Below are positions 31,271-64,000 of a stretch of 64,000 nt of DNA, in pieces. Numbering within the stretch: the stretch's first letter is position 1; each line of letters opens with the position of its first letter. The stretch is from positions 1,758,655 to 1,822,654 of the forward strand of contig CP073215.1 of NCBI GenBank assembly GCA_020342235.1. Direction: 5' to 3'. The position numbers and the translations under genes are program-made. The DNA is from Saccharomycopsis phalli. Lineage: Eukaryota > Ascomycota > Saccharomycetes > Ascoideales > Saccharomycopsidaceae. Under the pieces are notes generated by a model. That model made no database searches. It was not told the DNA's origin and was given only the letters and a program-made list of their open reading frames with translations.

Positions 31271-34080
31271 ACGAATAATATATGTATTATTTTATTTAAG
31301 GCTATAGTTATACTTCGACTCCGGAGAGATTGATACTTCACCGTCTAAGTCTAGGGCTGGCGCCACTATATATGTTGCTTAGAGAAAGCCCTTCGAATGG
31401 ATAGAAAAACTCCAGGCGGGACTTTTAGTTTTTGTGCTGGTAATTTGTGCGTGGGGCAGGCTGAGCTCTCGCCTCGGGTACTAGCACCGTAGCCTGCCGT
31501 AAGGTTGAACGAATAATATATATATACTAATAAAATATTGTAGAAAATTTGGAGTATAATACATAGTATTTTGGAGCCCAAAAATGAAGGTTGTGTATAA
31601 GATTGTAATAATAATATTCTTCGTCCTAGATCATTCAATGGCAGATTGGCTACTGCTTTGTATGCATCCCTTACTTGTTGAGTGAACCACCTCTTTGCAC
31701 GGCTATTTACTTGTTTCACTGGGGTGATTTTATCAATGACTTTCTTTAAGCTGTTTCTTAATGTGGTAGCAGCCCTGATTGGCATATCCTCTGTGCCGAC
31801 TGTGCTCGCGAAGCGGCACCTATCTAGACTAGTGTGCACACATTGCTAGCTTGTTTTGGCATGACTGTGTGTTGTTCTTGGTTTTAGCTTGTTTGTCCTA
31901 TCTGAAGGGCGGAGGGTCACTCGGGGGTGGAAATGGTTGGAGCTGAATTGTATAAGGTTTTGCAGTCGACTAACCTGTCCTTCCAATCTATCGATGATGA
32001 ACGTGTCGTAAACAGTATTCCCATCTCTATGAGTGGTGTGGTCTATGATATGAAAGGGCACAGTAGTATATTCATTTCTATGATACCGTCTATCTTCATT
32101 GAATTCTTTTTTTTGCCTCTGATCATGCAATACTGCTGAAAACGGGAGAGGAATGAGCAGCATCAACATCGCCCATTACGATTCCCCCAACAGTACCTTG
32201 TCTCTTTATCATAAAATCTATCATTAATTTTAAAGGCAATGATTCGTGGCAGATATTCGAGTCACGAGGAGGACAGTAAATAGTAAGGAAATACATAGTT
32301 TACTTCTTTTATGCAGTAGTAATTGATTCTAATACAGTCCCGGTATTGTAGCTCTTTAATGAACATAATTTAATAGCCGAATTTTTATCTTTGGGTACCC
32401 TGTTCACATATGTTGTAGGCCTAGGCCATGTCAGTGATTCACTGGCCTGTGGGAAGTAATCATACTTGTCGCAAGTAGCATGGTTGAACGTTTCATTGGG
32501 GCTGTGCTGGCGTATGGTTTCCTGAATTAATAAGATGACTTGTGAATTTTGATAGTGGTGTAAGATTATTTCGAGATTTGGTCTTTATTTCTGAATGTAA
32601 ACTGATATTAATGTAATCTTCATCGGGTGCTGTTTCAACGGGAGTCACTGTACGAAGCCGACTTCCTAAGGTTTAACCGTAGATTGTAACAGGTGAATGA
32701 GTTTTCATAAAATGCTGGCTATGTGTCTGTAGTACTGATCGTTAGGTTTCTTGGCACATATGATACATTTGCCATATGGGGCGGTGGCAGCAGAATTTCT
32801 ATCATATTGCGTGGTAAGTGTTCAGCAAATGGTTGTGGTTGCGGTGCATCCCTTCTGTTATTGGATCCCTGGTTCGGGGAATCTCTTCTGATTCTTGTTC
32901 GAAGTTCATGATTGCTAGAGCCTTTTTCTTGGGTCGCGTGTCTCATCGTAGTCCTCGAGACCACAGTATCTTTCAAAGAATCTGTATTGCTGTTTAGTTG
33001 CAAATCTCGCTGTTTTTTCATCAGGAAAAAAGATTCGTGCTGCGTATCTCCTTTTCGTGACCGGTGAGACGTAGTCCCAATTTGGCATGCTTTCACTTTT
33101 GATGAGTGGTTTCGGGGTGGCGCTTATAGTTTTCCCCTTCCATTGCTTCTCTCTGAGTACCTGTGTGATTTCTTCTCCTAACCTGGTTGGTGAGAAGTAG
33201 CATAACGGAACATTTCTGATTACTCTAGAGGGCCATGGTCTTGTTTTGATAACTCGCGGTGAGCTAAGACTTATTCGGAGATTGAATTGCTCGTCGTCAG
33301 TGAGAGGTTCATTGAGATAAACCTTGAAGTTGTTTAATCTCGTGAGTGATAGGTACTTGATTTTTCCGTCAGAGCTGTCGACGAGGTCCTTGAAGATGGT
33401 ATCATACTGAGCGGTCAAATCTTCAGTCCACTCTCGGTTTCGAAGATTCTGAAAATATATTAATTGAGCAGCGTCTTCAAAGTCTATTCCGACCAGTTCT
33501 ACTTCCCGTACACTGTTTTGGGTGGAAATTCTATTGCTTTGTTGGTGATTAGCGACTGCCTTAAAATAATCGTCGGGATGATACGCATCATAATTTGGAA
33601 GCCCTGCATTGAAGAGAAGCAGTTGTGGCAGTATCCCGATATGAGTGGAGACTCCTTCAACGACCAGTTTGAACACGCCAAACATTTCACGGACGGCTTG
33701 AGTTTGCTCCTCAGCTAAATAATTTGTATTCTTGAACCGGGTGGGGTGGGTGGATTGATAAGGCTGACTAATAAATGGTTCGACATTGTGTCGGATCAAA
33801 CGTGGCGAAGGAGGCAATTTTTCACATGTTGGTGGGGTGTACCTGTTTGTTTCATCTTTTGAGAGGCTAGTCTCATCCTTCTCAGGGAGTCCAAAAAGAT
33901 TTTCGTCATGGCGACTAGGATTGTGTTGTAACGCTCTGGTAGAGTTTGGATCAGATTGATTTAAACTAATAGTGTCTAATTGAGAATTTATTAGGTTTTC
34001 TGGGGTTTGAGGCTCAAGAGAATCGCCCAGGGTGCCATCCTCATTGTGTATATCTTCATGTTTGGAAGAGCTCACTTTTG
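31271..34080 (-). mobile_element. Degenerate LINE (non-LTR retrotransposon), internally deleted
   Basis: This minus-strand relic is related to the intact LINE at 50.2-55.3 kb. From the 5' side it holds an open ORF1 (see 32915-34075), the ORF2 start (ATGAAGATT near 32,624), and broken endonuclease-domain pieces (32169-31846 shares THRDGNT and LEGQV; 31839-31640 shares RRFAS, KRWFTQ and DAYKAV). It then jumps to a 3' untranslated region without the RT domain. The 3' end has TTAT-type tails near 31,271-31,300. The 3' UTR resembles segments near 40.2, 41.7 and 42.0 kb, so it belongs to a second LINE family. It inserted about 230 bp upstream of the F-box gene. Confidence 0.85.
32915..34075 (-). 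pseudogene. LINE ORF1 (Gag-like) relic, still open but start codon lost
   Basis: The frame is open for about 386 codons and aligns with ORF1 of the intact element: shared features are VYLNEPLTD, SRVIRNVP, PNWDYV and ARIFFPDEKTARFATKQ, ending RKR. The position equal to the ATG of the intact ORF1 is GTG here (34075-34073), so translation would have to use an ATG in flanking DNA 16 codons upstream (34123). The C-terminal 90 or so residues of the intact ORF1 are missing after a stop. Having so long an open frame beside a shattered ORF2 is notable. Confidence 0.75.
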
Positions 34081-40829: not shown

Positions 40830-41251
40830 TGTATTCAGCTTTTGCGTATTATTGGTACCTAGTGCTTGCATTGATTGTGTAAGAAGCCCGGTCACCCTTA
40901 TTGCCGAATGTGACCGCTGAATCTCATCATGTGTTGGAGGAATCGTATTCCAACACGTTGTGGTAGAACTCAATGTGTTTGCGGACTGATTTGTGATCAG
41001 TAAACACTTTTCCAAGCTTATTGCGTACGCCATAAATGGAATCTAGTATTTCATCAATGCGTGATACAATTTGAGCTTCTAAGAGCTCTGGGCATCGGAG
41101 GTTATGTATGATGGAGGGGGAGTGAATCCCACATCTTTTGCACTTTGGGTAATCGCTGCCAAATAGTTTACGCAACGAACCGTCTGTGAGGCTTTTTCCA
41201 CTGGGTAGTTGTGATGCCAAACTTAGGATTGCCTTGGGGCCTGCAAGCACT
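40830..41251 (-). mobile_element. 5'-truncated LINE copy, 3' end of ORF2
   Basis: The minus strand reads LAGPKAILSLASQLPSGKS, then the zinc-binding motif CKRCGIHSPSIIHNLRC and an ending EYDSSNT, nearly the same as the C-terminus of the intact ORF2. Homology stops abruptly at about 41,251, typical of 5' truncation during target-primed reverse transcription. Confidence 0.85.
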
Positions 41252-41490
41252 TCACCGGAAATGTTAGAGCAGATATATCAATTCACGTCAGCCATGATAA
41301 TTAGTAAAACTCCTAAGCTTCAGATTCTTTGCTTTATTCATTTGGAATTGAATGAGTTTCCAGCTGATATTAATTAGCCGAATAGCCGACACGCTATTGT
41401 ATTCTTCGTGAGTATTCGGCAACTCCATTGCCGAGTACTGTCAATGCACGTGACTAGTTATGCAAAGGCTATTTAGTTTTGGCCTTAACT

Positions 41491-41694: not shown

Positions 41695-42480
41695 GAGCAT
41701 AATAATAGTATGTTTATTTGAGGCTATATCTATAGTAGGATCCCAAGTGAGATTTACAAACCGTCGCCTACTACCAAGGACGGTGCCGCTATAGAGTTGT
41801 CTGGAGAAGGCCCAGGAGCAGAGATAAAATACTTACGGCTAGTGCTGAAGCAAAAGAGGAAGCTACCAGTTTACCACTGACATAAAATATTTGCATCTTG
41901 TAGTGTGATGTAAGGTAGGTCTTGTTGGAGTCAATGAGCTCTTGTCGTTCTTTGATAGGGTACACTAGTGTCCAGGGTCATGTGGATCTTCTTGATGAAG
42001 GGGCATGCATAGAGTTCGTTGTTATAATAATATGTTTATTTACTTCTATAGCTATACTAGACTCCCCTAGGAGGTGGTATTGATATTTCACCGCCTAAAA
42101 AACCAAGGATATACCCATCCAGAATTAACGTGTAGAATCCTTTAAGGGTCGGATAAGTGGTGGGCCGGGGCGAGGGAGATCATCAGGATTTTTCTATCAG
42201 ATTGAGAGACGATATTCTTGGGTTGGGTATCGAATTGGTCGCAATTTACGGAATCCTACTCTCTACTATGAGTGTTAACATAATAGGTCAATCTGTCTGC
42301 AGTTTCTAGGTATTTGTCCGTGGGTTTTGACACCTGAATTTTGACCTGGATAGTGATTTAGCCACGTTTTGGTGAGGTAGATTGGGGTTTTAAGTCTGAC
42401 GTACTTAGCGTAGTCTCTTCTCTGATGGGGACTTCGCACTAGTAATAATAAATAAATAATAAGTAATAGTAGTAGTGAGC
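41695..42480 (-). mobile_element. Two adjacent LINE 3' UTR relics
   Basis: Two 3' ends follow each other, each starting with ATAATAAT..TATGTTTATTT and a GCTATA core (41,699 and 42,017). Each resembles the 3' end of the 31.3-kb relic. No ORF is recognisable in between. The TAGT/AATA microsatellite at about 42,437-42,475 lies at the far end. Confidence 0.5.
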
Positions 42481-42724
42481 TCAATAAGATACGTGGTAGT
42501 AGTGGTAGTGTCAGGCTATCTTACAGACGTAAACTATATCTATTTTGAACTAAAGATCTTCAAGTCTAAACTACCATCTTTTATACCTGCATCTCTCACA
42601 TATACGTGTCCACTATGTGATAGCGGAGTCATACTATGCATCGTAATAGATCGGCGTCCATGCTCCCTATGTTGTCCATTCCGCTTATCACGTGACCATA
42701 TTCTTGTATCATACTTCGCATGAT

Positions 42725-43249
42725 GTCAAAGTCATGTTCGGTTTACAAGAACCGAATAGTTTCCTGTTGTCCAACCTCGCGGGGGAGGGTCCATGTGTCA
42801 AGTTTGACAAAGGCAGCGATGCCCCCAAGTGCCGCGGTGAGTATTCTGAAAATTTCTTTGGCGTCACGGGCCCCGGTCTCAATTGAGTATTTCGAGTTCT
42901 CGGTTCGGGAGGGGTTGGCGGCGTCGTAAGGTTGGATGAGCTTTTGTTCGACGCTTTGTCGGCTCCAAGTTTGTGGAAGCGGCGTTCTTGAACGTATTGG
43001 AGTGATGTGATCGCTTGTTTGGTCTTCTGAGGAGTCGGTGCCGACATCGTCAGTGAGTCCGAAGACTTGTTTAGTTTGGCGGTTGGGTTGGGTTGCTGGT
43101 GCTCTGGTGCTGTTTGGATCAATTTCAAGTTGGTTAATGGGTTCACCTTGAGAATCCATGCAGTTTACTGTCGTTTAGGGCCCCGATGGGTCGCCCGGAG
43201 GTTCAAACTCATTTTGTATTTCAGCAAATTGGGAAGGGCTCATTTTTAA
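42725..43249 (-). pseudogene. LINE ORF1 5' fragment, frameshifted
   Basis: From 43,249 leftward the minus strand reads MSPSQF, then IQNEFEPPGDPSGP, matching the N-terminus of the intact ORF1 (MSSSQIGETQNEFEPPGDP). It then continues in two other frames (MDSQGEPINQL, and later RQSVEQKLIQPYD), so at least two frameshifts or stops separate the parts. The 3' two-thirds of ORF1 and all of ORF2 are missing on the left. Confidence 0.85.
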
Positions 43250-43999: not shown

Positions 44000-45340
44000 G
44001 TATAATACAAAAAGTAGATAATGAAGTTGTTGCATTTTTGTCTTAGAGGCAGAAGCCCTAGATTTATTGATGACATGACTATTGTCAAAAAGGGTACCCG
44101 TGACGACATTGAGCACACGATACATGCTTGTTTGGGCGAATGTCACGAATAGTGACAAGAGAATATCAATTGTTTTCATTATGGACACAAATTCCACTAC
44201 ATTAGATCCGGAAAGAACCGAAGACGAGTGCCGACATGTGCTTGTAGCCCATAACTTCCAAACGAAGGAACAAAATTGGATACAAATCAAGCTAAATTAT
44301 TGAGAATTACCGATGAAATGCAGCCCAGCTTCCGAAGTCATCACAAACAAACATTCTCCAAGATATGTCACACGGTTGAACGAATACTATACTTCACTCG
44401 GATAGCGCATGACACAACAGGCAACAAAACGATAATATTATTAAAAACATATGTAATGCCGATTATTTCATGTGGTATGGTGATTTTTTTTGACAACATT
44501 ACTGAAACCCAATGGGATCAAGTGAACGTTATGTTCAACTCAATATTGAGACCGACAGTGGAATTCCCATACCAGCTTCCATATCAATTATCTACACCGA
44601 AAGTTGCAAACAACCACCTCAAGTACCACTCAAATATCTTACAATAAACAAGGCAATGCGATGGTTCATGGACACATCTAATTGAACCCGGTTGGTGCCA
44701 GTTCACTACAACCAGTATGAATCGACAGATCATCAAAAGTATGCATTCCAAAATAACACATTATCCAGGATATGCTAAGAGTGATCGCAACGCAGATTCC
44801 ACACACCAGAATCTTTGAGGCCATCACAAAACTACTTGTGAAGAGGACTGACTATATAGTAGAACAAAAGAGACTTAAGAAGGACTATCATTTAATAAGG
44901 ATGTTTTAACACTCCCACATTCAGATGCCTCAGGAAATGACATCACAATAAGTAATTAAAGAATGTCAGGATACTATCACCTTGCACTGTGACTACCTCA
45001 CACTGTGACTACTTCCCAAGGCATCACCAAAAAAGCGCGAGGAATGAACATAAAACTATTCATCGTCTGCAAAAATGAAACCAAGATCCTCTTATGGGAG
45101 GAGTCTGCGGTTCCCAAAATGATCTTCAGCTTGTTTTTTCAATTACTTGGTGGAGCCAACCTCACAGGCGGCGAATTGCTATGGTTATTTGGAAATGAGG
45201 GTCTGATAAATACATACGCAAACACATAGAGTTTTACAGGAATGTGATGGAGCATGACACTGCTAACACATGATGAGACTGAGTGAGCAAGCCTGTCTTA
45301 GACAAGAGTGCCCAGGCTTCTATATTCGATTTTTGAAGGG
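44000..45340 (+). mobile_element. Degenerate LINE copy on the plus strand, 3' half
   Basis: It begins in the RT domain: RFIDDMTIVKKGTRDDIEHT near 44,050-44,115, equal to GFIDDITIVK of the intact ORF2. It continues through SFRSHHKQTFSK and TQWDQVNVMFNSILR at 44276-44647, then many stops. It ends at HIEFYRNVMEH and a stop near 45,260, followed by the 3' UTR signature GACAAGAGTGCCCAGGCTTC. It is oriented opposite to the other LINE copies nearby and is clearly dead. Confidence 0.85.
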
Positions 45341-45609
45341 TTCATCAATGCGTTCTGCAGTCCGTTAATGTTTTGGACTTAATGATCAAAAGGAAAGAGA
45401 AGACTAAGAGAAGGCATTGTACTATTGCATATAACTAAAGGAACAAACCCAGAATGCGGTCATGAATAACAAAATGGTAGGTATCTATAACAAGGGAAGA
45501 TTCCAGTGCTACATATAATAGAAGTAACGGTGAAATGACTGGACAGAATAGCAGTCGGCGGGGACATGCAAAGATGACGCCTAACGTGTTGCCTCTTTGA
45601 CATGTGGGC

Positions 45610-45790
45610 TTATCATACGTATTAAGTCAGGAGAGGTCTCCGAGCTCAATGATAGAGTCAAGAGTAGCAGTGTGAGATATAGCACGTTGATCCGGCATGA
45701 TCCAGGAGGTAAAAGGTGGATGTGAGGCATTTAAATCACCCATGATGACCTCTTTGAAGCGGCAACCACAGGTTATGAGGTAATGCTGGA
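45610..45790 (-). mobile_element. LINE endonuclease-domain fragment
   Basis: The plus strand shows TGAGGCATTTAAATCACCCATGA where the intact ORF2 has GGGCTGCATTGAGGTCGCCCATGA (the GDLNAA motif). Flanking parts match more loosely. It is a short, strongly diverged piece. Confidence 0.55.
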
Positions 45791-45804
45791 CCGTCTGTGT
45801 GGCT

Positions 45805-46119: not shown

Positions 46120-47640
46120 TATAACTGGCAGTGAATGAGCGTTGCATTTTCCACATGGTAGGCTTTAGTTAGACTTAATCTCGTTCGGGATCTCCAGGGG
46201 CGGTGTCTCGAGAGGTTTGTTGACTTGAGATGTTGTCCTCTGGCGAATTGTCTTGAACCTGGGCTACAGGCGTGGTCTCGCCATTTGGAGTAGCTGTTGG
46301 GGGACAACTAGAGCGGGGTCTCTTGTAATTGGGTTTTCGTTTCAGATTGACTACGCGTGACTATCTCGCTGTGTTGGCTTGTGATCTATTCCGTTGGTGG
46401 GCACATTTATTGCCGTTTTCTTGGATTTGACCGCTCTCTCGTGGCGTACACTGGGAGGGGATTAATCCCGTTAAGATAAAATCTTTGCTTGGTGAAGTAG
46501 GTGGCGGTATCTTCATTTGGAAAGAAGAGCTTGGCACAGTAAGTGTCGTTGTTGTCTTCTGGGATGTTGTCCCAGTCAATGTGGACATCTTGTTTAATGA
46601 GAGCTCGTGGAGGGGCTGAGAAGAGTGGGTCCTCCCAATCTAAATCTTTGATGTTTTCGACGAGGAAAGCGTGAAGGTTGGCTGGTGAGAGACGGAGTGG
46701 AATGTTTCCCAAGACGCGCGTGGCCCAAGGGCTCAGGTCAAGAAGTCCTGGTGATTCAAAGATGGCCACAACAGTATTTTTTTCCTCCATACTCAATGGC
46801 TTGGAAACGTGAATTCTGATTTGTTTGGAACGGGTGAGTGAGACGTGAGTCACTTCTGGAAAATGTTCAAGCAAAGCTCTGAGCTGCTTGCCTTGGTGGG
46901 CCCTTTCGGCTCGGGAAGATGGATATGGATTTGGATTCTTAATGCAGAAGAGTTTCCCTTGGGCATACAATTCCCTTCCGTCAACATAACCAGGTTCATT
47001 GAGGTGCAATTTTTGAGTTGGGCGAGTTGAAGATGGTTGTTTTTGCAAGTCAGCGGCGGCTACTTGGGAGTAGCTGGTGTCTGTGGTGGACCTGAGTAGA
47101 GCCCTCAGCTCCCGGACGTCGGCCAAGAGAGTATCGTAATTCTTTTGAACTCTGTGTTGATACTGAATGAGGTGGTTGATGTGCTCTGTGGTTGATCTTT
47201 CCCAGTCAGATGTAGGCTGTCCAGAGTAGTACTGCAGGATGACAGTATTAGTGTTATGAGCCCATGGCCCAACGTGGTCCGACATGTTGTCTGTGGGGGT
47301 AAGAGGGCCTAGCTCTACGAGCTCTTTTGCGATGGGCTGAGGTAGATGGGATGTCGGCCAGACGGTTATGGGTGCTGGTAAAGGATATTCTGTTCCGTGT
47401 TGGGCAGCGGAGCTGCTCTTAGTGGCAAAAATAGGGGGTTGGTGCGATGCAGTTGCATCTGACCATGGTTCCTGGATTGGCTGCCGCGGCAAGCCTGGGT
47501 GATTTTCAGTCATCAGCGGATTGCCCAGGGGACCTGCCCGGGACGATTGATGAACCGAGGGAGCCTTTGACCCGTTGTATACTTTACTTTCAGAAACGTG
47601 ATTCCTGGATGCAAGATTTTTCATGTTCTATAATTTTCCA
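46120..47640 (-). mobile_element. LINE fragment of a divergent family (ORF1 part)
   Basis: It holds one ORF1-like frame (46407-47624) plus a short continuation to about 46,120. There is no ORF2. The right end falls just upstream of the ORF start. Higher GC than its surroundings, like the intact LINE. Confidence 0.65.
46407..47624 (-). CDS. LINE ORF1 (Gag-like) protein of a second family
   Basis: The 405-residue protein shares the ORF1 C-terminal domain of the intact LINE: LHLNEPGYVDGRELY, HVSKPLSMEEKNTVVAIFES, TRVLGNIPLRLSP, RALIKQDVHIDWDNIP and AKLFFPNEDTATYFTKQRF, ending in an RKR-type basic tail. This may be an RRM-like RNA-binding fold. The N-terminal half is Pro/Ser-rich and unrelated in detail to the other ORF1, with a helical stretch near 130-170. 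The whole frame is open although no ORF2 follows. It may be a recent partial insertion or a retained Gag-like gene. Confidence 0.6.
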   Translation of the reverse strand: MKNLASRNHVSESKVYNGSKAPSVHQSSRAGPLGNPLMTENHPGLPRQPIQEPWSDATASHQPPIFATKSSSAAQHGTEYPLPAPITVWPTSHLPQPIAKELVELGPLTPTDNMSDHVGPWAHNTNTVILQYYSGQPTSDWERSTTEHINHLIQYQHRVQKNYDTLLADVRELRALLRSTTDTSYSQVAAADLQKQPSSTRPTQKLHLNEPGYVDGRELYAQGKLFCIKNPNPYPSSRAERAHQGKQLRALLEHFPEVTHVSLTRSKQIRIHVSKPLSMEEKNTVVAIFESPGLLDLSPWATRVLGNIPLRLSPANLHAFLVENIKDLDWEDPLFSAPPRALIKQDVHIDWDNIPEDNNDTYCAKLFFPNEDTATYFTKQRFYLNGINPLPVYATRERSNPRKRQ

Positions 47641-48134: not shown

Positions 48135-49700
48135 TACGAAAATCTGGAGCAGTGACAGGGTTTGTGGTTACGGGCCCCGTCCTTCAAACGGGTGAGATGA
48201 GGTGAAAAAAATTGGCGAGGCATCACCTTCATCCATGTCAAGCATTGCACAATATTCTTGGAAATCAGTAAATAGCGGAGCGTTGGCGATGTTCGACGTG
48301 ATGTAATAATAGTGGCTGTCACAACCACAAATGGTAAAGAAAAGCATGGTAAGAGTATCTTGGATCGAGAGGCAAGTAATGTGACTGTGCAGCGTGTTGA
48401 TGTAAATTGAGGCAATTCTGATACTTGGCTTGTGGTGGAAGTTCACCGAAAATCTGCAGGAGCTGAAATGGTTTCTTGCAAAGCAAAGAGAAAGTGTCCT
48501 TGAGGATGTTGATAGCATAGCTGATGTCGGGGAACAGCTATCGATGTAGACGGTAGCATTCTGGTTGATGTTGGGTGGAGAATCTAGTAAGATGTGGGAA
48601 AGAATAATAAGCGTTGGAAAAAAGATGGTTGGGCGTGGTGCAAAGGAAGTGGTAGTATCAGTTGTGAGTGAGAATTGATGTGTATCAGGGCAACGAAATG
48701 AGTTTCCTACTGTGTCATGGACATAGTGGATGACTGATTGTTCAAATTTAGTGACGTGGCGGTATGCGAAGCGTCCCAAAAGTATTACCAGGAGAGATTA
48801 ACAAATTACTGGGAAAGTGTAAAATGTGGTGCCAAAAAACATCTGACCTTTGTACAAAAAATTGTATCTAGGATGATTCAAATAGTCAGCCAAGCAAGGC
48901 GGAATAATGAGACACATGATGGTCACGTTATGACGAAAGACGGGAAATAAAGTCCACAACGATTAAAGTGTTGGTAAGAAAGCTAAGATTATCCGGCTTA
49001 CAATACCTTGAACTAAGGTACTACTCGATTTGGAAGCGAATACGACAAATATATTGATAGATTACTTAGAAGAGGGATTGAAGGTATGAGAATCTTGCGG
49101 TGTAGTAATTGTCACTGTCAGCATAGCAGTGACGTAGCTCAGTACTATGGCGAGTGTGACAACATTTAACAATTGCAGGAAACTTGGTGGAATCAAAGTG
49201 GTGATAGCAACTGAGAAAGAAAACTCATCCGGGACGTCGATTAGCATGGGGATCAGGGACTCAGCAGGGCACGAAGCGATGCTACTGGATATGGAAGCAG
49301 AGCTGATCAATATATCAGCATTCTAAGTGAAGCCAGTGTCAATGACTGTAAGTTGCGGAACAAAGCGGAGTGGTGGAGATCCCATTATGTACATTGCGAG
49401 TTTGAAAAAAACTGAGGTGAAAGAAAAAGCAAGTGGATGTAGCAGATAATGATGAAAGGTATTATCAATGTGTAAAGTTTAGAGTTCTCTGTGTCTTAGT
49501 ATTGGTGTCGCCATGTATTATAGTAACTAGGATAGGAGTTGGTAGAATGGGCAAAATATACTGGCTTGACTTTTCAGAGAAGAGACTATTTACTTATATT
49601 TGGAAATGAAGCACAATTACTAAAAAGATAAGGAAACTGTGAGAAGATCAGGAATTGGTGTAGCTACTACGATAAGAAGTGAAGTATCATGTCGTGGTTC
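48135..49700. repeat. Subtelomeric duplicated segment, copy A
   Basis: This segment is collinear with 55,263-56,596 plus 59,264-59,635 (copy B). Shared anchors include GCATTGCACAATATTCTTG, ATCGATGTAGACGGTAGC, GGTCACGTTATGACGAAAGA, CAAGCGATGCTACTGGA-like sequence and TAGCTACTA(C/A)GATAAGAAGT. The minus-strand ORF at 48168-48779 has no intact partner in copy B, which carries about 170 bp more sequence at 55,500-55,670, so I treat it as remains of a decayed gene. Copy A ends where copy B continues into a protease gene. Confidence 0.8.
49253..49257. other. Paralogous empty insertion site of the LTR element
   Basis: Copy A reads GGGGATCAGGGACT without interruption. Copy B has the same sequence split by the 56,597-59,258 element with TCAGG on both sides. 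The site gives independent proof of the insertion. Confidence 0.9.
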
Positions 49701-49760
49701 ACAACCACTGCAGAATAGTTCACTAATGCGAGGTTGGCGTTGGTGATGTCTCACCAACCT

Positions 49761-50193
49761 ATAATAATAATATTTATTTTTGTATTTAGCTATATATTGT
49801 ATCCGGCAATACGGTTATTAGACAGATATATTTTCACTCAGGAACATCCTGAGGCAGCATTGCTGTTGAAGAAAACCCTTTGTCAACCCTCACTTGGTTG
49901 CTTGGGATTAAAAACTTCAATGGGAGCAGTCTTATTGTTGGTACTTAGTGATTGTGTTGATTATGTGAGAAGCCTGGTCACCCTTGTTGTCGAATGTGAT
50001 CGCTGAATCTCATCATGTGTTGGAGGAATCGTATTCCAACACGTTCTGGTAGAACTCAATGAGTTGGTGGACTGATTTTTGGTCGGCAAACACTTTTCCA
50101 AGCGTATTGCGTATGCCATGAGTGGAATCTAGTATGTCATCGATGCGTGATAGAATTCGGGCTTCTAAGAGCTCTGGACATCGGAGGTCATGT
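49761..50193 (-). mobile_element. 5'-truncated LINE copy (3' end only)
   Basis: It parallels the 3' terminal region of the full-length LINE: tail ATAATAATAATATTTATTTTT, then ACGGTTATTAGACAGATATA, and the end of ORF2. It stops at AGGTCATGTA. The full-length LINE tail begins at the next base. Several differences per 100 bases separate the two, so it is an older copy. Confidence 0.88.
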
Positions 50194-50448
50194 ATAATAA
50201 TAATAATATTTATTTTTGTATTTAGCTATATATTGTCTCCGGCAATACGGTGATTCGACAGATATATTTTCACTCAGGAACATCCTGAGGCAGCATTGCT
50301 GTTGAAGAAAACCCTTTGTCAACCCTCATTTGGTTGCTTGGGATTAAAAACTTCAGTGGGGGCAGTTATATTGTTGGTGCTTGGTGCTTGTATGGATTGT
50401 GTAAGAAGCCTGGTCACTCTTGTTGTCGAATGTGACCGCTGAATCTCA

Positions 50449-53400
50449 TCATGTGTTGGAGGAATCATATTCCAACACGTTCTGGTAGAACTCAAGGAGT
50501 TTGTGGACTGATTTTTGGTCGGCAAACACTTTTCCAAGCGTATTGCGTATGCCATGAGTGGAATCTAGTATGTCATCAATGCGCGATAGAATTCGAGCTT
50601 CTAGGAGCTCTGGGCATCGTAGGTCATGTATGATGGAGGGGGAGTGAGTCCCACATCGTTTGCACTTTGGGTCATCATTGCCAAATAATTTGAGCAACGA
50701 TCCGTCTGTGAGGCTCTTTCCGCTGAGTAGTTGTGATGCCAAACTGAGGATTGCCTTGGGGCCTGCAAGTGCTTCCGTGAGGAGGAGCTTGGTTTTGTCT
50801 CGGTGCACTTTGAAAGGAGTGGTGCTGATTTTGCGTGCGTTCCTATAGTGGTTTGGGAATGATTCGCTGGTTGAGGTGATCATTGCTTGCCACTCTTTGG
50901 TTGCTGCGTCTGAGGCTATTTTCTTGAGCATCTGGATGCGGGTCCGTCTTGGATCTTGCATCGGTGGCGGGTCGTCCTCGAGTCGTTGTTCCTCTAGTGC
51001 ATAATCCGCGCGTTGTTCAAGTAATCGAGCGGCTGCGTCAAACGTTCTGATATCTGGATTGTGAGGGGCTGTTGCCTGTAACATGTCCTGGATAAGAGGG
51101 CGCTTTGGAATTATGATTCTCGTGCTTCCATTGATCGTGGTAGTTTGGAACAAACTTGAGCGGACTGGGTTTTGGCGTGATGTATTCATGAACCATCTCA
51201 TAGATTTCATTATTGCCAAGGACTTGAGTAGGATCGTTGGTGGTGGAATACCACTTTCGATATAGATGATCGGGGTGGACGTGGGTCTGAGGAGGCCTAG
51301 CGCCAGTCGTAGGATTGAGTTGAATATCACACTGACCTGACCCCATTGGGTTTTTGTCATGCTGTTATAGAACACCTCGAGTCCATACGATATGATGGGG
51401 ACTGCGCACGTTTTGAACAATATTATCGTGGTACGTCCCGTGGTTCCTCGTGTCATTCGGCTTAAGTACCTTATTTGTTCAGCAGTACGGCGCATCTTGG
51501 ACAATGTTTGTTTTAGATGGCTCCTGAAGCTGAGTCTTGAATCAAGGGTAATGCCTAATAACTTGACCTCGTTTGTTTCCTCCTTTCGTCCTCCGTTCGG
51601 AAGTTGGAGGCTAGATTCACAGTTCGGTAACCGTCTTCGATTCGGGAAGAATCGTATGTATTGTAGTTTCGGGCCATAGTCAAAGCTTGTGAAATTCTCT
51701 TGACCCCATTGATGGCATTCCTGTAAGCATCGTTGAAGTGTATGCTCAATGTCGCCTCGGGATCCCGTTTTGACAATTGTAATGTCATCAATGAATCCTA
51801 AAGCCACAGCCCCTTTCCGCTCAAGCCGGTTGTAGAGGTCGTGGGTGTAGATCATGAAGAGGATTGGAGAGATTGGAGAGCCTTGTGGGACACCGAACGT
51901 AACGGGGAGGTGCTGGTCTGATAACTGTCCATCAATTTTTAGCTGAGTGCTTCGGTTCTGGAGGAAGTTATTAGTCCAATTAATTATCTCGGGTGGAGCG
52001 CCGACGGCCTGCATCTTTTGTAGTAGGATCGGGTGGCTCATGTTGTTGAAGGCACCTTCAATGTCGACTAGGACTGCTCCGGAGTGGCTGGAGTTGTCTA
52101 GTGGCATTTTCTGGTTGTCCTTGAGGTGAGTCTGGGCGTGGACCTTGAGGTTATTTACTAAGGTTGTAACCGCATCCGTTGCGCAGTACCCTTTGCGCCC
52201 CCCAAATTGGTAAGATGGAAGTTGGATTTTGGCAACCAATCTTTGGGTCATGATTGACTCGAAGATTTTCCCAAGTATATTGAGTAAGCTAATTGGTCGA
52301 AATGATTTTGGTGTCTCGTAATTGGCCTTTCCCGGTTTCGGGATTACTACCGTGATGCTGGTTTTCCACTGTTTGGGGAATGCTCCAAGTTTGAGGCACG
52401 CGTTGTAGATCAATTCCAACTGGTCAGGGAAGGTTTTCCCATGCCAAAGCTCCCTGATTTGACCAACGGTGAGCTGGTCAGGACCTGGAGCTTTTTTGAG
52501 CTTTAGGTATCTGATGGTGTTGAATATTTCCTCCTTCGTTATTGGTTCGATGTCGTCCCAATGAGTGTTGTGCGGTTGGAACGAAGCTGGCGTGAGGCTC
52601 TCACCTACAGTGATCTGTGGGTAAAAGGTTTTGCCAAAGGCTTCGTGTTGTTCCTCGTACAGTTTCATCATTCTATGGCGCTTTGCTGGGTTTGTGTATC
52701 TGTAAGCAGTCCAGATGGTGGTGTGGTCCAACTTGAGTAAGAAATCATTCCAGCACTTGGATTTGGCTTTTTGAACAGTTTCCTGAAAGGCCTTCTGAGC
52801 ATTGCTTCGTTCTGGATTGTCCATTGCGAGGCTTGTGACAGTTCTATACGCGTCTTTGACTTCTTGAGTGAACCACCTTTTTGAGCGGCTATTTACTAGT
52901 TTCATCGGGGTGTTTCTGTCAATTAGTTGCCTTAGACTCTGGGTTAACTTGGCGGATGCCTTGTTTAGTTCATCCTCTGTGTGGATGGCGCTTGCGAACC
53001 GACGTTTATCTAGTGTTGCACGTACCTTTGACCAGTCCGTTTTAGAGTAGTTATGCACCGTTTTTGGCTTGATCTTGTTCGACATGTCGGGAGGGCGGAG
53101 TGATACGCGAAGACCGAAGTGGTCGGAGCCGAATTGCCGAAGCTTTGGCTGTGGTGTCACTTGCCCTTCCAACTTATCGCTGATTAGTATAACATCAAGA
53201 GTGTTACCGTCACGGTGTGTGGGCTGGTCGATGATGTTAAGGCATTGGAGTTTCCCCATTTCCATGATGTCATCGATCCTCAGTGTGGCCTTCCGTGCTT
53301 CCACCCCTGCTATGTTGCGAGAGGTAAAGGCTGGGTGGGCTGCATTGAGGTCGCCCATGATAATTCCATTGAAAATTCCTTGTTTGTCTATAATGTAGTT

Positions 53401-53802
53401 TCTTACTAGTTTTAGCGACCGGGACTTGAGGTGGGCCTTGGAATCGTGCGGCGCATTGTAGATGTTGATGATGTCTACAACTTGCTTTCGTGATTCTAAG
53501 GTGATTCCCACACAGTCTCTATCTTTTAATTCATTGATATACCTTGTGCGGTAGCCATATTGTTGATCTTTAATTTTCTTGTTAACATATGTCGTGGCCC
53601 TAGGTCGGGCTGACTGGTCGTTTACCTCAGGGAGGTAATCATATTTGTCATAGGCGGCGTGGTTGCAAGTCTCATCGGGGTTGCACTGACGTGCAGTCTC
53701 CTGGACTAATAGTATTACTGCCGAATTCTTGTAATGGTCAAGGACCGCTTCTAGATGCGGCCTTCGTTTCTGGATGTTGATCGAGATGATTGTTATCTTC
53801 AT
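50449..53802 (-). CDS. LINE ORF2: endonuclease-reverse transcriptase
   Basis: The 1,117-residue polyprotein carries out target-primed reverse transcription. Residues 1-235 form an AP-like endonuclease with the expected residues: ET in LLVQET, GDLNAAHP (about 148-156), THRDGNTLD and SDH in GSDHFGL. The reverse transcriptase spans about 400-720: APGPDQL, FRPISLLNILGKIFE, VLVDIEGAF (motif A), GVPQGSPISPILF (motif B) and GFIDDI (motif C, FIDD instead of the more common YADD). A C-terminal zinc motif C-x2-C-x8-H-x3-C lies near 1,045-1,062. This tail and the motif C suggest the I/R1/Tad/Jockey side rather than L1-type Zorro elements known in Candida. No RNase H domain was recognised. It starts inside the ORF1 stop (ATGA). 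Confidence 0.95.
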   Translation of the reverse strand: MKITIISINIQKRRPHLEAVLDHYKNSAVILLVQETARQCNPDETCNHAAYDKYDYLPEVNDQSARPRATTYVNKKIKDQQYGYRTRYINELKDRDCVGITLESRKQVVDIINIYNAPHDSKAHLKSRSLKLVRNYIIDKQGIFNGIIMGDLNAAHPAFTSRNIAGVEARKATLRIDDIMEMGKLQCLNIIDQPTHRDGNTLDVILISDKLEGQVTPQPKLRQFGSDHFGLRVSLRPPDMSNKIKPKTVHNYSKTDWSKVRATLDKRRFASAIHTEDELNKASAKLTQSLRQLIDRNTPMKLVNSRSKRWFTQEVKDAYRTVTSLAMDNPERSNAQKAFQETVQKAKSKCWNDFLLKLDHTTIWTAYRYTNPAKRHRMMKLYEEQHEAFGKTFYPQITVGESLTPASFQPHNTHWDDIEPITKEEIFNTIRYLKLKKAPGPDQLTVGQIRELWHGKTFPDQLELIYNACLKLGAFPKQWKTSITVVIPKPGKANYETPKSFRPISLLNILGKIFESIMTQRLVAKIQLPSYQFGGRKGYCATDAVTTLVNNLKVHAQTHLKDNQKMPLDNSSHSGAVLVDIEGAFNNMSHPILLQKMQAVGAPPEIINWTNNFLQNRSTQLKIDGQLSDQHLPVTFGVPQGSPISPILFMIYTHDLYNRLERKGAVALGFIDDITIVKTGSRGDIEHTLQRCLQECHQWGQENFTSFDYGPKLQYIRFFPNRRRLPNCESSLQLPNGGRKEETNEVKLLGITLDSRLSFRSHLKQTLSKMRRTAEQIRYLSRMTRGTTGRTTIILFKTCAVPIISYGLEVFYNSMTKTQWGQVSVIFNSILRLALGLLRPTSTPIIYIESGIPPPTILLKSLAIMKSMRWFMNTSRQNPVRSSLFQTTTINGSTRIIIPKRPLIQDMLQATAPHNPDIRTFDAAARLLEQRADYALEEQRLEDDPPPMQDPRRTRIQMLKKIASDAATKEWQAMITSTSESFPNHYRNARKISTTPFKVHRDKTKLLLTEALAGPKAILSLASQLLSGKSLTDGSLLKLFGNDDPKCKRCGTHSPSIIHDLRCPELLEARILSRIDDILDSTHGIRNTLGKVFADQKSVHKLLEFYQNVLEYDSSNT

Positions 53803-55256
53803 TGTGATCCAACTTGGCTTGAGTCACTGTGGGAAACCATCTGAGTTCGACTTGACCGTAGATTATATCTTGATGTCGAGTTCTCATCAGGAGCTGGGTA
53901 AGTCTCCGTCGTATTGATCACTAGATCTTTTGGGATCTTGGGTTGACTGGAGGGGTTACTCGTGGCGTTTGGGTTTCCCGGTGTGCCGCTTTGTGCGGTG
54001 GAAGCAGGAGGGATGGAAGATGGTTGGCTCGTTTTTGACTTGGAGCCGCGGCTTCGGCGTGGCCGTCGCGGTGACTCTTTGAGGAGGTCAAGGTGAGTCC
54101 GTTTCCGGATGTTGCGCTTTCCCTTGTACTCGGTTAGTCTGTGGATTTCTCCTTCGATGCAGTAGCGTTGTTCTGACGCGAATTGCGCTGTTGCCTCGTC
54201 CGGGAAGAATAACCGAGCTGAGTAGCGTTTTGTGCATTCGATAGGGATTGTGGACCAATCCGGCATGTTTTCTGGGCTAATGAGTGGTCTTGGTGCGGAA
54301 CACAAGGCTTCTCCTTCCCACTGCGCATTTCTTAAGGTTCTCGAAATTTCGAGTGCGACGTTGTCGGGGGAGAAGGTTGCTGGGACGTTTTGGATTACCC
54401 GTGAGACCCATGGTTTTGTGTTGAGTGGTCCTGGTGATCCGAGCGCAGATTGGAGTGTCAACTTGTTTTCGTCGGTGAAGGGTTCGTTTAGGTGGACCCG
54501 GAAGTGGTGCGCCGCGGTGAGGCTGATCATGCTGATCTTGCATGCCGACTGGTCAATGATGGCTTTGGACTCAACTTCGAATTGGATGCGTTTTGCAGCA
54601 CTCCATGTTCGACTTTGAGGATTAACGTAATACGCTAATCTGCCAGCTGTTTCAAGGTCTTTGCCAGTTGGTCTTTGCTCCCGGGTTTTGGTTCTGGTTG
54701 CAGTGTGGCCACGTTTTGATGAGGTGGCCGGGGGTGCGAGGAATGCATGTTGGGTTTGTAGAAATTGAATGGCTTCCTCCTGTCCAGCTTGGCGGAGGAA
54801 GGTGGTTGAATCAAGTTTGTAAAACCGGGCGGCCCCAGAGATTGCGTTAGTGAGTACTCCGTAGGCCTGTATAGCGTCACGAGCCCTGTCCTCAAATGTG
54901 TAATTTGAGTTCCCGCTTTGGGAGGGGTGGTCAGTTTCATAAGGTTGGATAAGCTTTTCTTCGACGTTTTGTCGGTTCCAAGTTTGTGGGGGTGGCGAGA
55001 TGGCACCCGGTGGGGTGTTGTATCCGCTTGTTTCGTGTTCTGAGGGGTCGGTTTCGTCCTCCTCGGTGAGGCCATAGGATTTTTTAATTTGGCCGTTGGT
55101 GTGTGTTGCTGGTGCCCTGGCGGCACTTGGGTCAATTTGAAGTTGGTTAATAGATTCGCCGTGGGAATCCATGCGGTTTGCTGTTGTTTGGGGCCCTAAT
55201 GGGTCGCCCGGGGGTTCAAACTCATTTTGTGTTTCACCAATTTGGGAAGAACTCAT
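53799..55256 (-). CDS. LINE ORF1: Gag-like RNA-binding protein
   Basis: The 485-residue protein has a Pro/Asn/Thr-rich N-terminus, a helical middle (about 120-170) and a conserved C-terminal domain (about 220-385) with LNEPFTDENKL, SRVIQNVPATFSP and ARLFFPDEATAQFASEQ, which could be an RRM-like fold. A strongly basic segment follows (GKRNIRKR, then RRPRRSRGSK), suited to RNA binding. No CCHC knuckle is present. The start MSSSQIGETQNEF is supported by the same start in the 43.2-kb relic. Its stop overlaps the ORF2 start. Confidence 0.85.
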   Translation of the reverse strand: MSSSQIGETQNEFEPPGDPLGPQTTANRMDSHGESINQLQIDPSAARAPATHTNGQIKKSYGLTEEDETDPSEHETSGYNTPPGAISPPPQTWNRQNVEEKLIQPYETDHPSQSGNSNYTFEDRARDAIQAYGVLTNAISGAARFYKLDSTTFLRQAGQEEAIQFLQTQHAFLAPPATSSKRGHTATRTKTREQRPTGKDLETAGRLAYYVNPQSRTWSAAKRIQFEVESKAIIDQSACKISMISLTAAHHFRVHLNEPFTDENKLTLQSALGSPGPLNTKPWVSRVIQNVPATFSPDNVALEISRTLRNAQWEGEALCSAPRPLISPENMPDWSTIPIECTKRYSARLFFPDEATAQFASEQRYCIEGEIHRLTEYKGKRNIRKRTHLDLLKESPRRPRRSRGSKSKTSQPSSIPPASTAQSGTPGNPNATSNPSSQPKIPKDLVINTTETYPAPDENSTSRYNLRSSRTQMVSHSDSSQVGSQ

Positions 55257-55262
55257 TTTTTT

Positions 55263-56596
55263 TCATCTTCATACATGTGAAGCATTGCACAATATTCTTG
55301 AAAGTCAGTAAATAGCGGAGTATTGGCGATGTGCGACGTGATGTGGTAGGAATGGCTATTACAACCACAAATGGTAAGGAAAAGCGTGGTGAGAGTATCA
55401 TAGATCGAGAGGAAAGTCAAGTAATGAGACTTTGCAGCGCGTTGAAGTAAATTGAGACAATCCTGATGCTTCGCTTGTGGTGGAAATTCACTAGCGAGTT
55501 GTTACAATGGGTGGAGAGTGTATTGTGCGTGTTGGCGAGCTGCATGTGTTTTGGTGCCGAACAAAAGAATGAATTCCTCAAGGGCTGAGGTGGCTTGAAT
55601 AATTTCGAGGTTGTGCTTAAGGTGGGAAAAGAGGTGATTCATTTCTATTCTGAACGCTGAGATTACTGAGAATCAGCAGGAACTGGAATGGTTTCTTGCA
55701 AAGCGAAGAGAAAATATCGTTGAGGATGTCGATAGCATAAGCGTTGTCACTGAATATCTATCGATGTAGACGGTAGCTTTTTTTTCTGGTAGATGTTGGT
55801 TGGAGAAACTAGTAAGACGTGGGAAAACATAATAAGCGTTGAAAAAAGGATGGTTGGGAAAGGTGCAAGAGAAGTGATTATATGAGTGGTGACTGAAATT
55901 GATGGGCATGAGGGCAACAAAATTAGTTTCCTATTGTGTCATAAATATAGTGAATGACTGAATGATCAACTTTAGTAACGTGTTGGTGTGGTCTGTGGGT
56001 ATGCCGAACGCTCCAAAAAATATTTCCAGAAGAGATAGACAAGGGATGAGAAAATGACTGGGAAAGTGTAAAGTATGGTGCCAAAAAGTATCAGACCTTT
56101 GCATAAAAAATTGTATCTAGGACGATTGAGATAGTCAATCATGCAAGGCGGAATAATGAGACGCATGATGGTCACGTTATGACGAAAGACGAGAAATAAA
56201 GTCCACAACGATTAAAGTGTTGGTAAGAAAGTTAAGATTATCCGGGATATAATACCTTGCACTAAGGTATTACTCAATTCGGAAGCGAATACGACAAATC
56301 TATTGATAACCTATTTGAAAGGGGAATCTAAGGTATGGGAATCTAAGGTATGGGAATCTAAGTTATGGGAATCCAAGGTATGGGAATCCAAGGTATGGGA
56401 ATCTAAGGTATGGGAATCTAAGGTATGGGAATCTTGCGGTGCAGTAATCGTCACTGTCAGCATAGCAGTGACGTAGCTTAGAGCGATGGTGAGTGTGATA
56501 ACATTCAAGAATTATAGGACACTTGGTGGAACCAAAGTGGTGATAGCCGGGGAGAGCGAAGATCCTTGCGGGTCGTTGATTGGCACGGGGATCAGG
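55263..56596. repeat. Subtelomeric duplicated segment, copy B, left part
   Basis: Collinear with copy A (48.2-49.26 kb). It begins at the LINE 5' junction and ends with the TCAGG target duplication (56592-56596) of the LTR element. No intact gene is recognisable; minus-strand frames contain helical protein-like stretches (for example NILKDTFSLLCKKPFQ in copy A and its partner here), which suggests a decayed gene in both copies. Confidence 0.78.
56329..56431. repeat. 15-bp minisatellite (about 7 units)
   Basis: Units of the form GGTATGGGAATCTAA repeat head to tail. Copy A has a single unit at this place (GGTATGAGAATCTTG near 49,083), so the array expanded in copy B only. Confidence 0.85.
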
Positions 56597-56875
56597 TGAC
56601 GTAATCTAGCAGATCCTTATGGCATCCATATCTTCTATTATAGATAATTCATCTTCTTGTTACTATTCTAGCTATTTTCTGTCCTATTTATATTATTCTT
56701 TAAGATGCATTCAGTTATCCTTAACTTCAGATGTCTGTACCGGTGATCTCCTTAATGTATGACCCCACTGTCCATCTCCTTAATTTATGAGATCCCCAAT
56801 AGGACGATCTCCTTAATCTCTAGGATTTTCGACATCTTCAACATTTAATCTCTCAGATCTTCGACATCTTCAACA
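56597..56875 (-). repeat. Left LTR (3' LTR of the element)
   Basis: 279 bp, matches the right LTR at every position I compared. Bounded by TG...CA in minus orientation. Contains repeated CTCCTTAAT and TCTTCGACATC motifs. Confidence 0.92.
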
Positions 56876-60678: not shown

Positions 60679-61180
60679 AATGAAGAAGTAATGGGAAAAA
60701 TAATGAAGATTAAATATAAGATTGATTATTACAAAAGATATAGCCGTGCATGATATTGGATCGGCGAAGTGGATATAGAAAAAACATAGGATGAGGGATT
60801 TATGGTATGGAGTAAAGAGTGTTGGGTGGAACTGCATATGTGCATGAGGGGAAATGTGAGGTAGATGGGTTGAAGAAGAATTTAGAGAGAGAGAAAGTAC
60901 AAAAAAAAAAAAGAGAATGAAGAGAGGAAGTGGATCAATAGGGAGTGGATAAATAAGGATTTGGGAGGGTCTACTTAGGCATTGTAAGGTGGAGGAAGGG
61001 AGAGAGGTAGAGCAATGGAAATGCAGAGGATAGGGCTACATGATACATGAAGAGGAATGAAACGGCACAGTGTTGGTAATGAGAAGTATTATTGTGAGGG
61101 ATTTCTTCAACATCATTGAATGTCGTGATGTCTGAGTCCGTAGGATATGACACAAGCGGCATCTCGCCGTAAACCATCCT
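60679..61180. other. Upstream region of the inner protease gene
   Basis: Purine-rich on the plus strand, with GAGAGAGA and A12 tracts near 60,890-60,912. It resembles the region upstream of the outer protease gene (shared GAAATGTGAGG(T/C)AGATG), so the promoters are paralogous too. No gene recognised. Confidence 0.5.
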
Positions 61181-63234: not shown

Positions 63235-63396
63235 GATGAAGAAAAGATAGAGGGAATATAGAAGATTATATATAAGTTTGAGGGGAAAGGGCGAAGTGAA
63301 AGAGATGTATGGGATGAGTATTGGGTGGAAGGGCATAGGGGACTGGAGAAATGTGAGGCAGATGAGATGAAACATGGAGTTGGATATGAGACAGGG

Positions 63397-63540
63397 ATTT
63401 GACAATGCATTTGACAATGCATTTGACACGGCATTTGACAAGGCATTTGACAATGCATTTGACACGGCATTTGACAAGGCATTTGACAAGGCATTTGACA
63501 CGGCATTTGACAAGGCATTTGACAAGGCATTTGACGTAAG
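63397..63540. repeat. 12-bp minisatellite upstream of the outer protease gene
   Basis: Eleven units of ATTTGACAATGC, ATTTGACAAGGC or ATTTGACACGGC (63397-63528), plus one variant unit. The period is four codons, so all frames stay open and give four-residue repeats (ALSN/AVSN on the minus strand). Confidence 0.95.
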
Positions 63541-63717
63541 TAGGCAGGTGATGCAGAAAGGACATGTGACGTAACATTATCATGCGCCACAAAAGGGTCA
63601 TGTGATAAGATTTTCATGTGATGTGATAATGGCACGTGATAGCCGTAGTCAGGTGATGTAATTAGCATGTGACGCGGCATTAGCAGTTGTGGCATAGCCG
63701 TCAGGTGATACTGTAAG
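63541..63717. repeat. Subtelomeric array of CANGTGAY motifs
   Basis: Eight CA(G/T/C)GTGA(T/C) motifs start at 63545, 63563, 63599, 63615, 63633, 63650, 63666 and 63702. Spacing is 16-18 bp, or 36 bp (twice that). One is a full CACGTG. They may bind a bHLH factor such as Cbf1 or a telomere-associated protein; the sequence alone does not tell. Confidence 0.7.
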
Positions 63718-63723
63718 ATGAGC

Positions 63724-64000
63724 GGATGAGCGGATGTGCGGATGTGCGGATGTGCGGATGTGCGGATGTGCGGATGTGCGGATGTGCGGATGTGCGGATG
63801 TGCGGATGTGCGGATGTGCGGATGTGCGGATGTGCGGATGTGCGGATGTGCGGATGTGCGGATGTGCGGATGTGCGGATGTGCGATGTGCGGATGTGCGG
63901 ATGTGCGGATGTGCGGATGTGCGGATGTGCGGATGTGCGGATGTGCGGATGTGCGGATGTGCGGATGTGCGGATGTGCGGATGTGCGGATGTGCGGATGT
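63724..64000 (+). repeat. Telomere, 8-bp repeat GGATGTGC
   Basis: One GGATGAGC variant (63724-63731) is followed by 19 perfect units (63732-63883), one 7-base unit lacking a G (63884-63890), 13 perfect units and 6 bases of another. The G-rich strand points to the window end, as at a right chromosome end. Two adjoining units contain ATGTGCGGATGT, one mismatch from the Rap1 site on this strand (RTGTRYGGGTGT), so Rap1 could bind. Confidence 0.95.

Follow-up and report, generated by a model that had tools for sequence, protein, structure and literature searches.

Does a budding yeast carry an intact long interspersed nuclear element (LINE) that is not of the L1 type, and, if so, did it arrive from a filamentous fungus? 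The question was raised by a sequence-only reading of a 64,000-nucleotide stretch of the Saccharomycopsis phalli genome (GenBank assembly GCA_020342235.1, contig CP073215.1, forward-strand positions 1,758,655 to 1,822,654; hereafter the window). The best-described LINEs of budding yeasts, Zorro and Ylli, are reported as L1-type elements with poly-A tails, and Zorro3 is described as a working yeast model (PMC1965478, PMC7175516, PMC5014426). Our analysis confirmed that the LINE at positions 55260..50194 of the window, which we designate F1, is real and complete. Probably, F1 is an autonomous and recently mobile LINE with an apurinic/apyrimidinic (APE)-type endonuclease, and of the elements tested, the fungal Tad type comes closest to it.

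The element and its copies

F1 occupies ~5.07 kb of the minus strand, with its 5' end at 55260 and its 3' end, at 50194, inside a TTA tail. The sequence-only reading had the coordinates right and left the strand unstated. The features of the element are as follows:

50194..55260, minus strand: complete F1 LINE, a unit 99.9–100 per cent identical in full-length copies; ends taken from junctions
53799..55256, minus strand: open reading frame (ORF) 1, 485 amino acids, open; no Pfam family, weak prediction of a fold resembling the RNA recognition motif (RRM)
50449..53802, minus strand: ORF2, 1117 amino acids, open; APE endonuclease, reverse transcriptase (RT) and C-terminal Cys-His motif
53098..53802, minus strand: APE-type endonuclease domain, ORF2 residues 1–235 (PF14529, 7.7e-12; PF03372, 3e-4)
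51691..52344, minus strand: RT core (Pfam RVT_1), ORF2 residues 487–704, with motif C FIDD
50614..50664, minus strand: C-x2-C-x8-H-x3-C motif, ORF2 residues 1047–1063, kept in the related families F2 and F3
53799..53802, minus strand: ATGA, in which the ORF1 stop TGA overlaps the ORF2 start ATG
50194..50448, minus strand: 3' untranslated region (UTR) ending in a (TTA)n/(TAT)n tail

As the sequence-only reading had claimed, both ORFs are open, the endonuclease and RT residues are in place, and the Cys-His motif, the FIDD motif and the triplet tail are all present. Compared with Pfam, the whole ORF2 matches RVT_1 (E 1e-29) and Exo_endo_phos_2 (PF14529, E 7.3e-11), and the APE endonuclease lies N-terminal to the RT within this single ORF. 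The endonuclease residues N9, E35, Y115, GDLN 150–153, D203 and SDH 226–228, and the RT motifs A (VDIEGAFNN), B (GVPQGSPISP) and C (FIDD), which we take to be the catalytic positions, are all kept in F2 and F3, save for a single E/K substitution inside the F3 motif A. No RNase H match was found with Pfam in the ORF2 of F1, F2 or F3 at E up to 1. Likewise, Pfam yields no family for the F1 ORF1 up to E 1, and neither F1 nor F2 has a visible CCHC zinc knuckle in its ORF1. The predicted fold of ORF1 is weak (48.6); it is tandem-RRM-like for residues ~205–376, with a best RRM-like match at E 3.5e-3 and none at 0.001 or better, and this putative region is only a lead. An ORF1 profile matched nothing in the ORF1 of L040, a Tad-type element described below, and nothing in PDB below E 0.06. 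The predicted fold of ORF2 (mean predicted local distance difference test score 39.7) was too poor for use.

We carried out the survey of copies that the sequence-only reading had proposed by searching the whole genome (14.15 Mb, 8 contigs) with ORF2. The search yielded at least 48 matches, a lower bound since 41 of 519 candidates were scored. Full-length open ORF2 is present in at least five copies, including that of the window, with 99.9–100 per cent DNA identity across the element; because the 5.07-kb unit recurs at this identity with different flanks, F1 is not a chance ORF. Judged by coordinates, ORF1 is also intact in four of the five (C1:1.61M, C4:0.51M, the window and C7:1.25M; copies are named by contig and position), and broken in the fifth (C6:0.33M). 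The window copy and the C1:1.61M copy are 100 per cent identical across 5066 bp. F1 is therefore recent and multicopy, and 5'-truncated copies accompany the full-length ones. Compared to a copy on C2 that is 97 per cent identical and has one stop in ORF2, the window ORF2 differs by 54 synonymous and 41 nonsynonymous codon changes, whereas 72–78 per cent of changes would be nonsynonymous under neutrality; this indicates that purifying selection has maintained coding function. In ORF1, the same comparison gives nine synonymous and nine nonsynonymous changes.

Two further families, F2 (L034) and F3 (L035), have open ORF2s that are 51 and 50 per cent identical to that of F1, respectively. The ORF1 of F2 is also open and 27 per cent identical to that of F1. 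Both F1 and F2 have the ATGA overlap, and F3 has these four letters at its ORF2 start. The distances between F1 and F2 at the three codon positions (0.39, 0.325 and 0.652) again point to selection acting on the protein sequence. At their 3' ends, the three families share TATAGCTA...TAAATAA(A/C)ATTATTATT, with F1 the most divergent.

The copies C1:1.61M and C1:0.017M (L016/L011) have the same 5' flank over 1495 bp, without a difference, and differing 3' flanks, one of which begins inside an F2 element; this arrangement looks like the outcome of a duplication or an ectopic exchange mediated by LINEs.

Triplet tails, target-site duplications and a proposed cycle

In the window copy, the tail of F1 is (TTA/TAT)n without poly-A. 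We scored 40 of 395 candidate F1 3' ends and read 39 of them (C1:1576239 was excluded, and an extra 33-bp match was set aside). TTA triplets terminate all 39, in runs of ~3 to at least 20 units, of which the run at L064 is imperfect. Three 3' ends (L071, L073 and L076) carry TTA arrays above ~15 units, perhaps through microsatellite growth from the LINE tail.

Exact direct duplications of 12–15 nt flank seven of the 11 copies with a visible 5' end (b, C4:0.51M; d, C6:0.33M; e, C7:1.25M; g, C6:0.41M; h, C1:0.017M; i, C6:0.02M; j, C1:0.89M). The lengths of these target-site duplications (TSDs) are upper bounds, as their first bases may be tail and their last may be the leading A of the element. 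The remaining four copies (a, C1:1.61M; c, window; f, C2:0.13M; k, C7:1.53M) show matches of 4–5 nt only, and in a control, where 5' flanks were paired with 3' flanks of other copies (108 pairs), no match exceeds 7 nt. The TSDs begin with TTA, TA, ATA or ATT in six of the seven cases and with AAA in one; the former starts would fit priming by pairing with a UUA tail. TSDs and 5'-truncated copies, both expected of an APE-type LINE, are thus found for F1.

The tail of the window copy continues directly into a second, partial copy:

49761..50195, minus strand: 5'-truncated F1 copy, 435 bp, 94 per cent identical, head-to-tail behind the intact element (sequence match)

A similar head-to-tail join exists at a minimum of one further F1 3' end (L061). 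Additionally, the F2 copy L034 immediately follows an F3 3' end with its TTA tail and has TTATTATTACACA on both sides, which indicates that LINE tails can serve as targets; one or two cases are too few to show a preference for tails.

The sequence itself shows the ORFs, domains, overlap, tails, duplications, truncation and near-identical copies. From these features we propose a cycle in which the transcription of F1, its mode of translation, its priming and any present activity are inferred. The element RNA would be made with probably almost no leader, because only ~4–5 nt precede ORF1, i.e., there is almost no 5' UTR. The ORF1 product, a putative RNA-binding protein, would be translated first, and ORF2 would follow by termination–reinitiation at ATGA, a coupling suggested by the overlap alone. 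The ORF2 endonuclease would then nick A+T-rich DNA, the freed DNA 3' end would pair with the UUA repeats at the 3' end of the RNA, and the RT would copy the RNA from the paired end by target-primed reverse transcription. Such a cycle would leave variable (TTA)n tails, TSDs of 12–15 bp and many 5'-truncated copies.

Relationships to other LINEs

The rows available for comparison were one Tad-type element (L040), human L1, R2 and group II. L040 is a LINE with endonuclease, RT and RNase H on contig PABS01000003.1, titled Ponticaulis sp.; this was the single contig that the motif pattern RPI[AS]LLN..GK...E found in the whole genome_contigs collection. Two Ponticaulis sp. proteins have been classed as misassigned Tad-clade LINE sequences (Arkhipova 2020; PMC7643828, Table 1), and they likely come from this contig. 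L040 and the ORF2 of F1 are colinear over residues 3–864 (27 per cent identity, E 2e-77). They have in common the blocks RPISLLN..GK, SKRWFTP and PQGSP.SPIL, and both elements have two ORFs with a stop/start overlap, TAATG in L040 and ATGA in F1; a UAAUG case, that of SART1, is cited in a review (PMC2881922).

In RT-domain blastp searches, F1 scores 194 bits against L040, 94 against R2 and 78 against human L1, and F2 scores 188, 100 and 79 bits, respectively. An RT phylogeny of these rows, narrower than the one that the sequence-only reading had proposed as a check, groups F1–F3 with the Tad row and not with human L1: the branch separating F1–F3 and L040 from the rest has support of 87/96 with eight rows, 99/99 with seven and 97/97 with six. 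In a further tree, which includes a row from L045 cut outside the RT core, F1–F3, L040 and L045 are separated from L1, R2 and group II (86/95, unrooted); with the midpoint root as drawn, L040 and L045 are set apart, which is no conflict when the tree is unrooted. A tree uniting F1–F3 with human L1, the only L1 row, had a lower likelihood in all three sets (approximately unbiased [AU] test; P-values = 0.012, 0.039 and 0.068). The endonuclease points in the same direction, as the score for PF14529 exceeds that for PF03372 by 24.5 bits in the F1 endonuclease piece, 45.8 in L040, and 16.1 and 14.0 in the whole ORF2s of F2 and F3, and falls below it in a 174-amino-acid segment of human L1 (−1.6 bits). 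Elements of the R2 group lack an APE endonuclease and have a restriction-like endonuclease at the C-terminus, whereas F1 has its APE endonuclease at the N-terminus.

Several observations weigh against this placement or blunt it. There is a single Tad reference, Zorro, Ylli, I, R1 and Jockey have no rows, R2 is a 234-amino-acid piece, and long branches were flagged. F3 scores 190 bits against L040 and equally, at 95 bits, against R2 and L1. The AU test does not reject the grouping of F1–F3 with L1 in the set with P-value = 0.068, that with R2 in two of three sets (P-values = 0.013, 0.064 and 0.378) or that of L040 with L1 in two of three (0.022, 0.087 and 0.38). A profile that includes L040 gives L1 ORF2p 105 bits and R2 89; its PDB matches at E up to 0.001 include endonucleases of L1 (E 1.8e-5 to 4.4e-4) and none of the R1 type. 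Tad elements are described as carrying RNase H (PMC7643828), and L040 does so (PF00075, 5.6e-11), whereas F1–F3 show none. Finally, the window copy is itself one of those without a TSD. Searches of PDB with single proteins were mixed: F1 found R2 first (67 bits) and then L1 (58), L040 found L1 (65 bits) with no R2 among the matches listed, and the F1 endonuclease domain alone found no endonuclease.

Within this small sample, the conclusion that F1–F3 are not L1 appears well supported, and the Tad clade seems to be their nearest tested name, although it fails on RNase H. The non-L1 claim of the sequence-only reading is upheld by the RT trees, AU tests and BLAST, whereas two of its cues are weak: FIDD alone names no clade, and a C-terminal Cys-His motif is described also for L1 and the I factor (PMC2881922). 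It is unlikely that F1 is a diverged L1-type element, akin to Zorro or Ylli, that has lost its poly-A tail. The LINEs described from Candida albicans and Yarrowia are L1-type, the 5' UTR of Zorro3 is also nearly absent (5 bp; PMC1965478), and the lack of RNase H in F1–F3 is shared with L1, for which none is listed in the review (PMC2881922); the ranking of L1 ORF2p over R2 by the profile including L040 also points that way. However, the RT trees and BLAST favor the Tad row, and Zorro3 is described with non-overlapping ORFs and poly-A tracts. By contrast, the ORFs overlap at ATGA in F1 and F2, and F1 ends in TTA instead of the poly-A of the L1 clade. It is quite possible, if not the placement we prefer, that F1–F3 are sister to Tad and not inside it, as a lineage of their own or as one resembling Deceiver, Inkcap, I or R1/Jockey. 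Neither F1 nor F2 has the ORF1 zinc knuckles seen by eye in L040 (where the zf-CCHC_3 match, E 0.018, is below its cut-off), and RT identity to the single Tad row is only 31–32 per cent. The absence of RNase H and the triplet tail, which recalls the UAA repeats of the I factor (PMC2881922), also suit a sister lineage. The blocks RPISLLN..GK and SKRWFTP shared with L040 speak for Tad, though the first is also the pattern by which L040 was found.

The sequence-only reading had entertained a transfer from a filamentous fungus; a recent one found no support and is very unlikely. In its favor, the codon usage of F1 correlates with that of nine host genes pooled from the window at low values (r = 0.54 for ORF2 and 0.40 for ORF1, vs 0.50–0.90 for single host genes against the rest), and the G+C content of the LINE ORFs is 0.46–0.52, vs 0.34–0.46 in host genes. 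Off-host codon usage is, however, common in mobile elements, and at least three families with ORF2s ~50 per cent identical coexist in this genome with older remnants and relatives at 35–50 per cent identity, which indicates long residence. The ancestors of F1–F3 may have been acquired by an ancient transfer.

F1 shows a mixed likeness to described elements, which, for Zorro3, Ylli and the I factor, were compared by description. Like F1, Zorro3 of C. albicans is a two-ORF yeast LINE with endonuclease and RT, recent copies, a very short leader and a C-terminal zinc-finger-like domain (PMC1965478), and unlike F1 it is reported to be related to L1, with ORFs that are apart and with tracts of poly-A (PMC1965478, PMC7175516). 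Ylli of Yarrowia lipolytica is similarly described as multicopy, with two ORFs, an APE-type endonuclease and truncated copies, but with poly-A tracts and no TSDs identified in that report (PMC5014426), whereas F1 has TTA tails and TSDs of 12–15 bp. A poly-A region has been reported for a Tad element of Paracoccidioides, in contrast to the (TTA)n of F1. According to the review, a LINE can end at its 3' side in short sequence repeats, and in the Drosophila I factor UAA repeats are cited as essential for precise initiation; unlike F1, the I factor has RNase H, three ORF1 Cys-His motifs and UAA rather than UUA as its repeat (PMC2881922). Among other yeasts, Scheffersomyces LINEs were identified partly by terminal poly(A) (PMC8546629), Jockey and L1 LINEs are reported from Hanseniaspora gamundiae (PMC6353571), and 48 LINEs are reported from Brettanomyces bruxellensis, with LINE/L2 matches of ~50 bp in a table (PMC6493715). 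Because of the Jockey and LINE/L2 reports, F1 cannot be called the first non-L1 LINE of a budding yeast; in a literature search mostly at the level of titles and abstracts, we recognized no description of this element. If its placement is correct, F1 would offer a second, different model of target-primed reverse transcription, i.e., a compact, apparently young, triplet-tailed element on the Tad side that does without RNase H. It would help show whether such elements can dispense with RNase H, zinc knuckles and poly-A, and by what means they are maintained at the chromosome ends of yeasts.

Outside the yeast, neither an alignment query nor two motif patterns recovered LINE relatives from viral contigs (of the four contigs hit by one pattern, three matched nothing in F1–F3 up to E 1, and the fourth matched only at E 0.4–0.9), and an alignment query of the genome_contigs collection found no LINE relative. 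A tblastn search of plasmids returned 217 records, with 25 of the 30 listed annotated as group II intron RTs, and a phage search returned two unannotated records. These collections cover prokaryotes and viruses, and no I, R1 or Jockey reference surfaced in them, in searches not directed at those clades. The L045 row derives from an Alicyclobacillus fastidiosus plasmid (NZ_CP104070.1, 1315–2592), where an unannotated LINE-type RT sequence has decayed and contains stop codons; it is perhaps a eukaryotic contamination.

Chromosome ends and the surroundings of F1

The window contains six older LINE remnants between 31.6 and 47.7 kb, plus a few short 3'-UTR-like matches, and it ends in a telomeric array:

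31618..34075, minus strand: older F1-related remnant, ORF1 (35 per cent identity) and N-terminal part of ORF2 (46–50 per cent); sequence match
40847..41253, minus strand: F1-like 3' end remnant, 81 per cent protein identity; sequence match
42154..43243, minus strand: F1-like ORF1 remnant; sequence match
44063..45202, plus strand: F1-like ORF2 remnant, on the opposite strand; sequence match
45561..45797, minus strand: F2-like ORF2 remnant, 73 per cent identity; sequence match
46332..47624, minus strand: F2-like ORF1 remnant, 62 per cent identity; sequence match
63717..64000, plus strand: telomeric array at the contig end, 35.6 copies of the 8-bp unit GATGTGCG; repeat count

The GATGTGCG repeat caps nine of the 12 other contig ends inspected; the start of C2 is N, and the starts of C6 and C7 are other sequence. 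Nine of the 40 scored F1 3' ends lie <25 kb from a chromosome end, where 1.13 are expected (binomial test; P-value = 1.4e-6), and five of 18 F2/F3 matches lie within 30 kb of one; both cut-offs were set after the list was seen, and subtelomeric duplication could inflate the excess. Tentatively, F1–F3 and their older relatives may be a long-resident yeast LINE lineage outside Tad proper that has lost RNase H and is primed through UUA. Its insertions would favor A+T-rich DNA at chromosome ends as well as the TTA tails that earlier LINEs have left, each old copy thereby providing sites for new ones.

The 5' flank of the window element (55263–56600) is ~82–87 per cent similar to the block 48223–49260, and parts of it recur at the right end of C1; this block appears to be a subtelomeric repeat. 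Behind the truncated copy, 69 bp (49692–49760) recur at 98.6–100 per cent near two other F1 copies (L017 and L032) as an unnamed short repeat.

Elsewhere in the genome, there are 97 RVT_1 matches. Four that the ORF2 search had left unassigned were inspected and comprise three F3 fragments and one telomerase-RT-like sequence; with these four of 97 inspected, an L1/Zorro-type element may be present elsewhere in the genome. The telomerase-like sequence is a 667-residue open frame at L042 (C6:316000–318400), recognized by eye. The top RVT_1 matches (e.g., C7:782297 and C2:384426) lie in open frames of up to 1571 amino acids, which, as a guess, may belong to Ty3/gypsy-type long terminal repeat elements. 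Next to the telomere of the window, two related ORFs on the minus strand (59680–60837 and 62266–63525) are subtilisin-like by eye.

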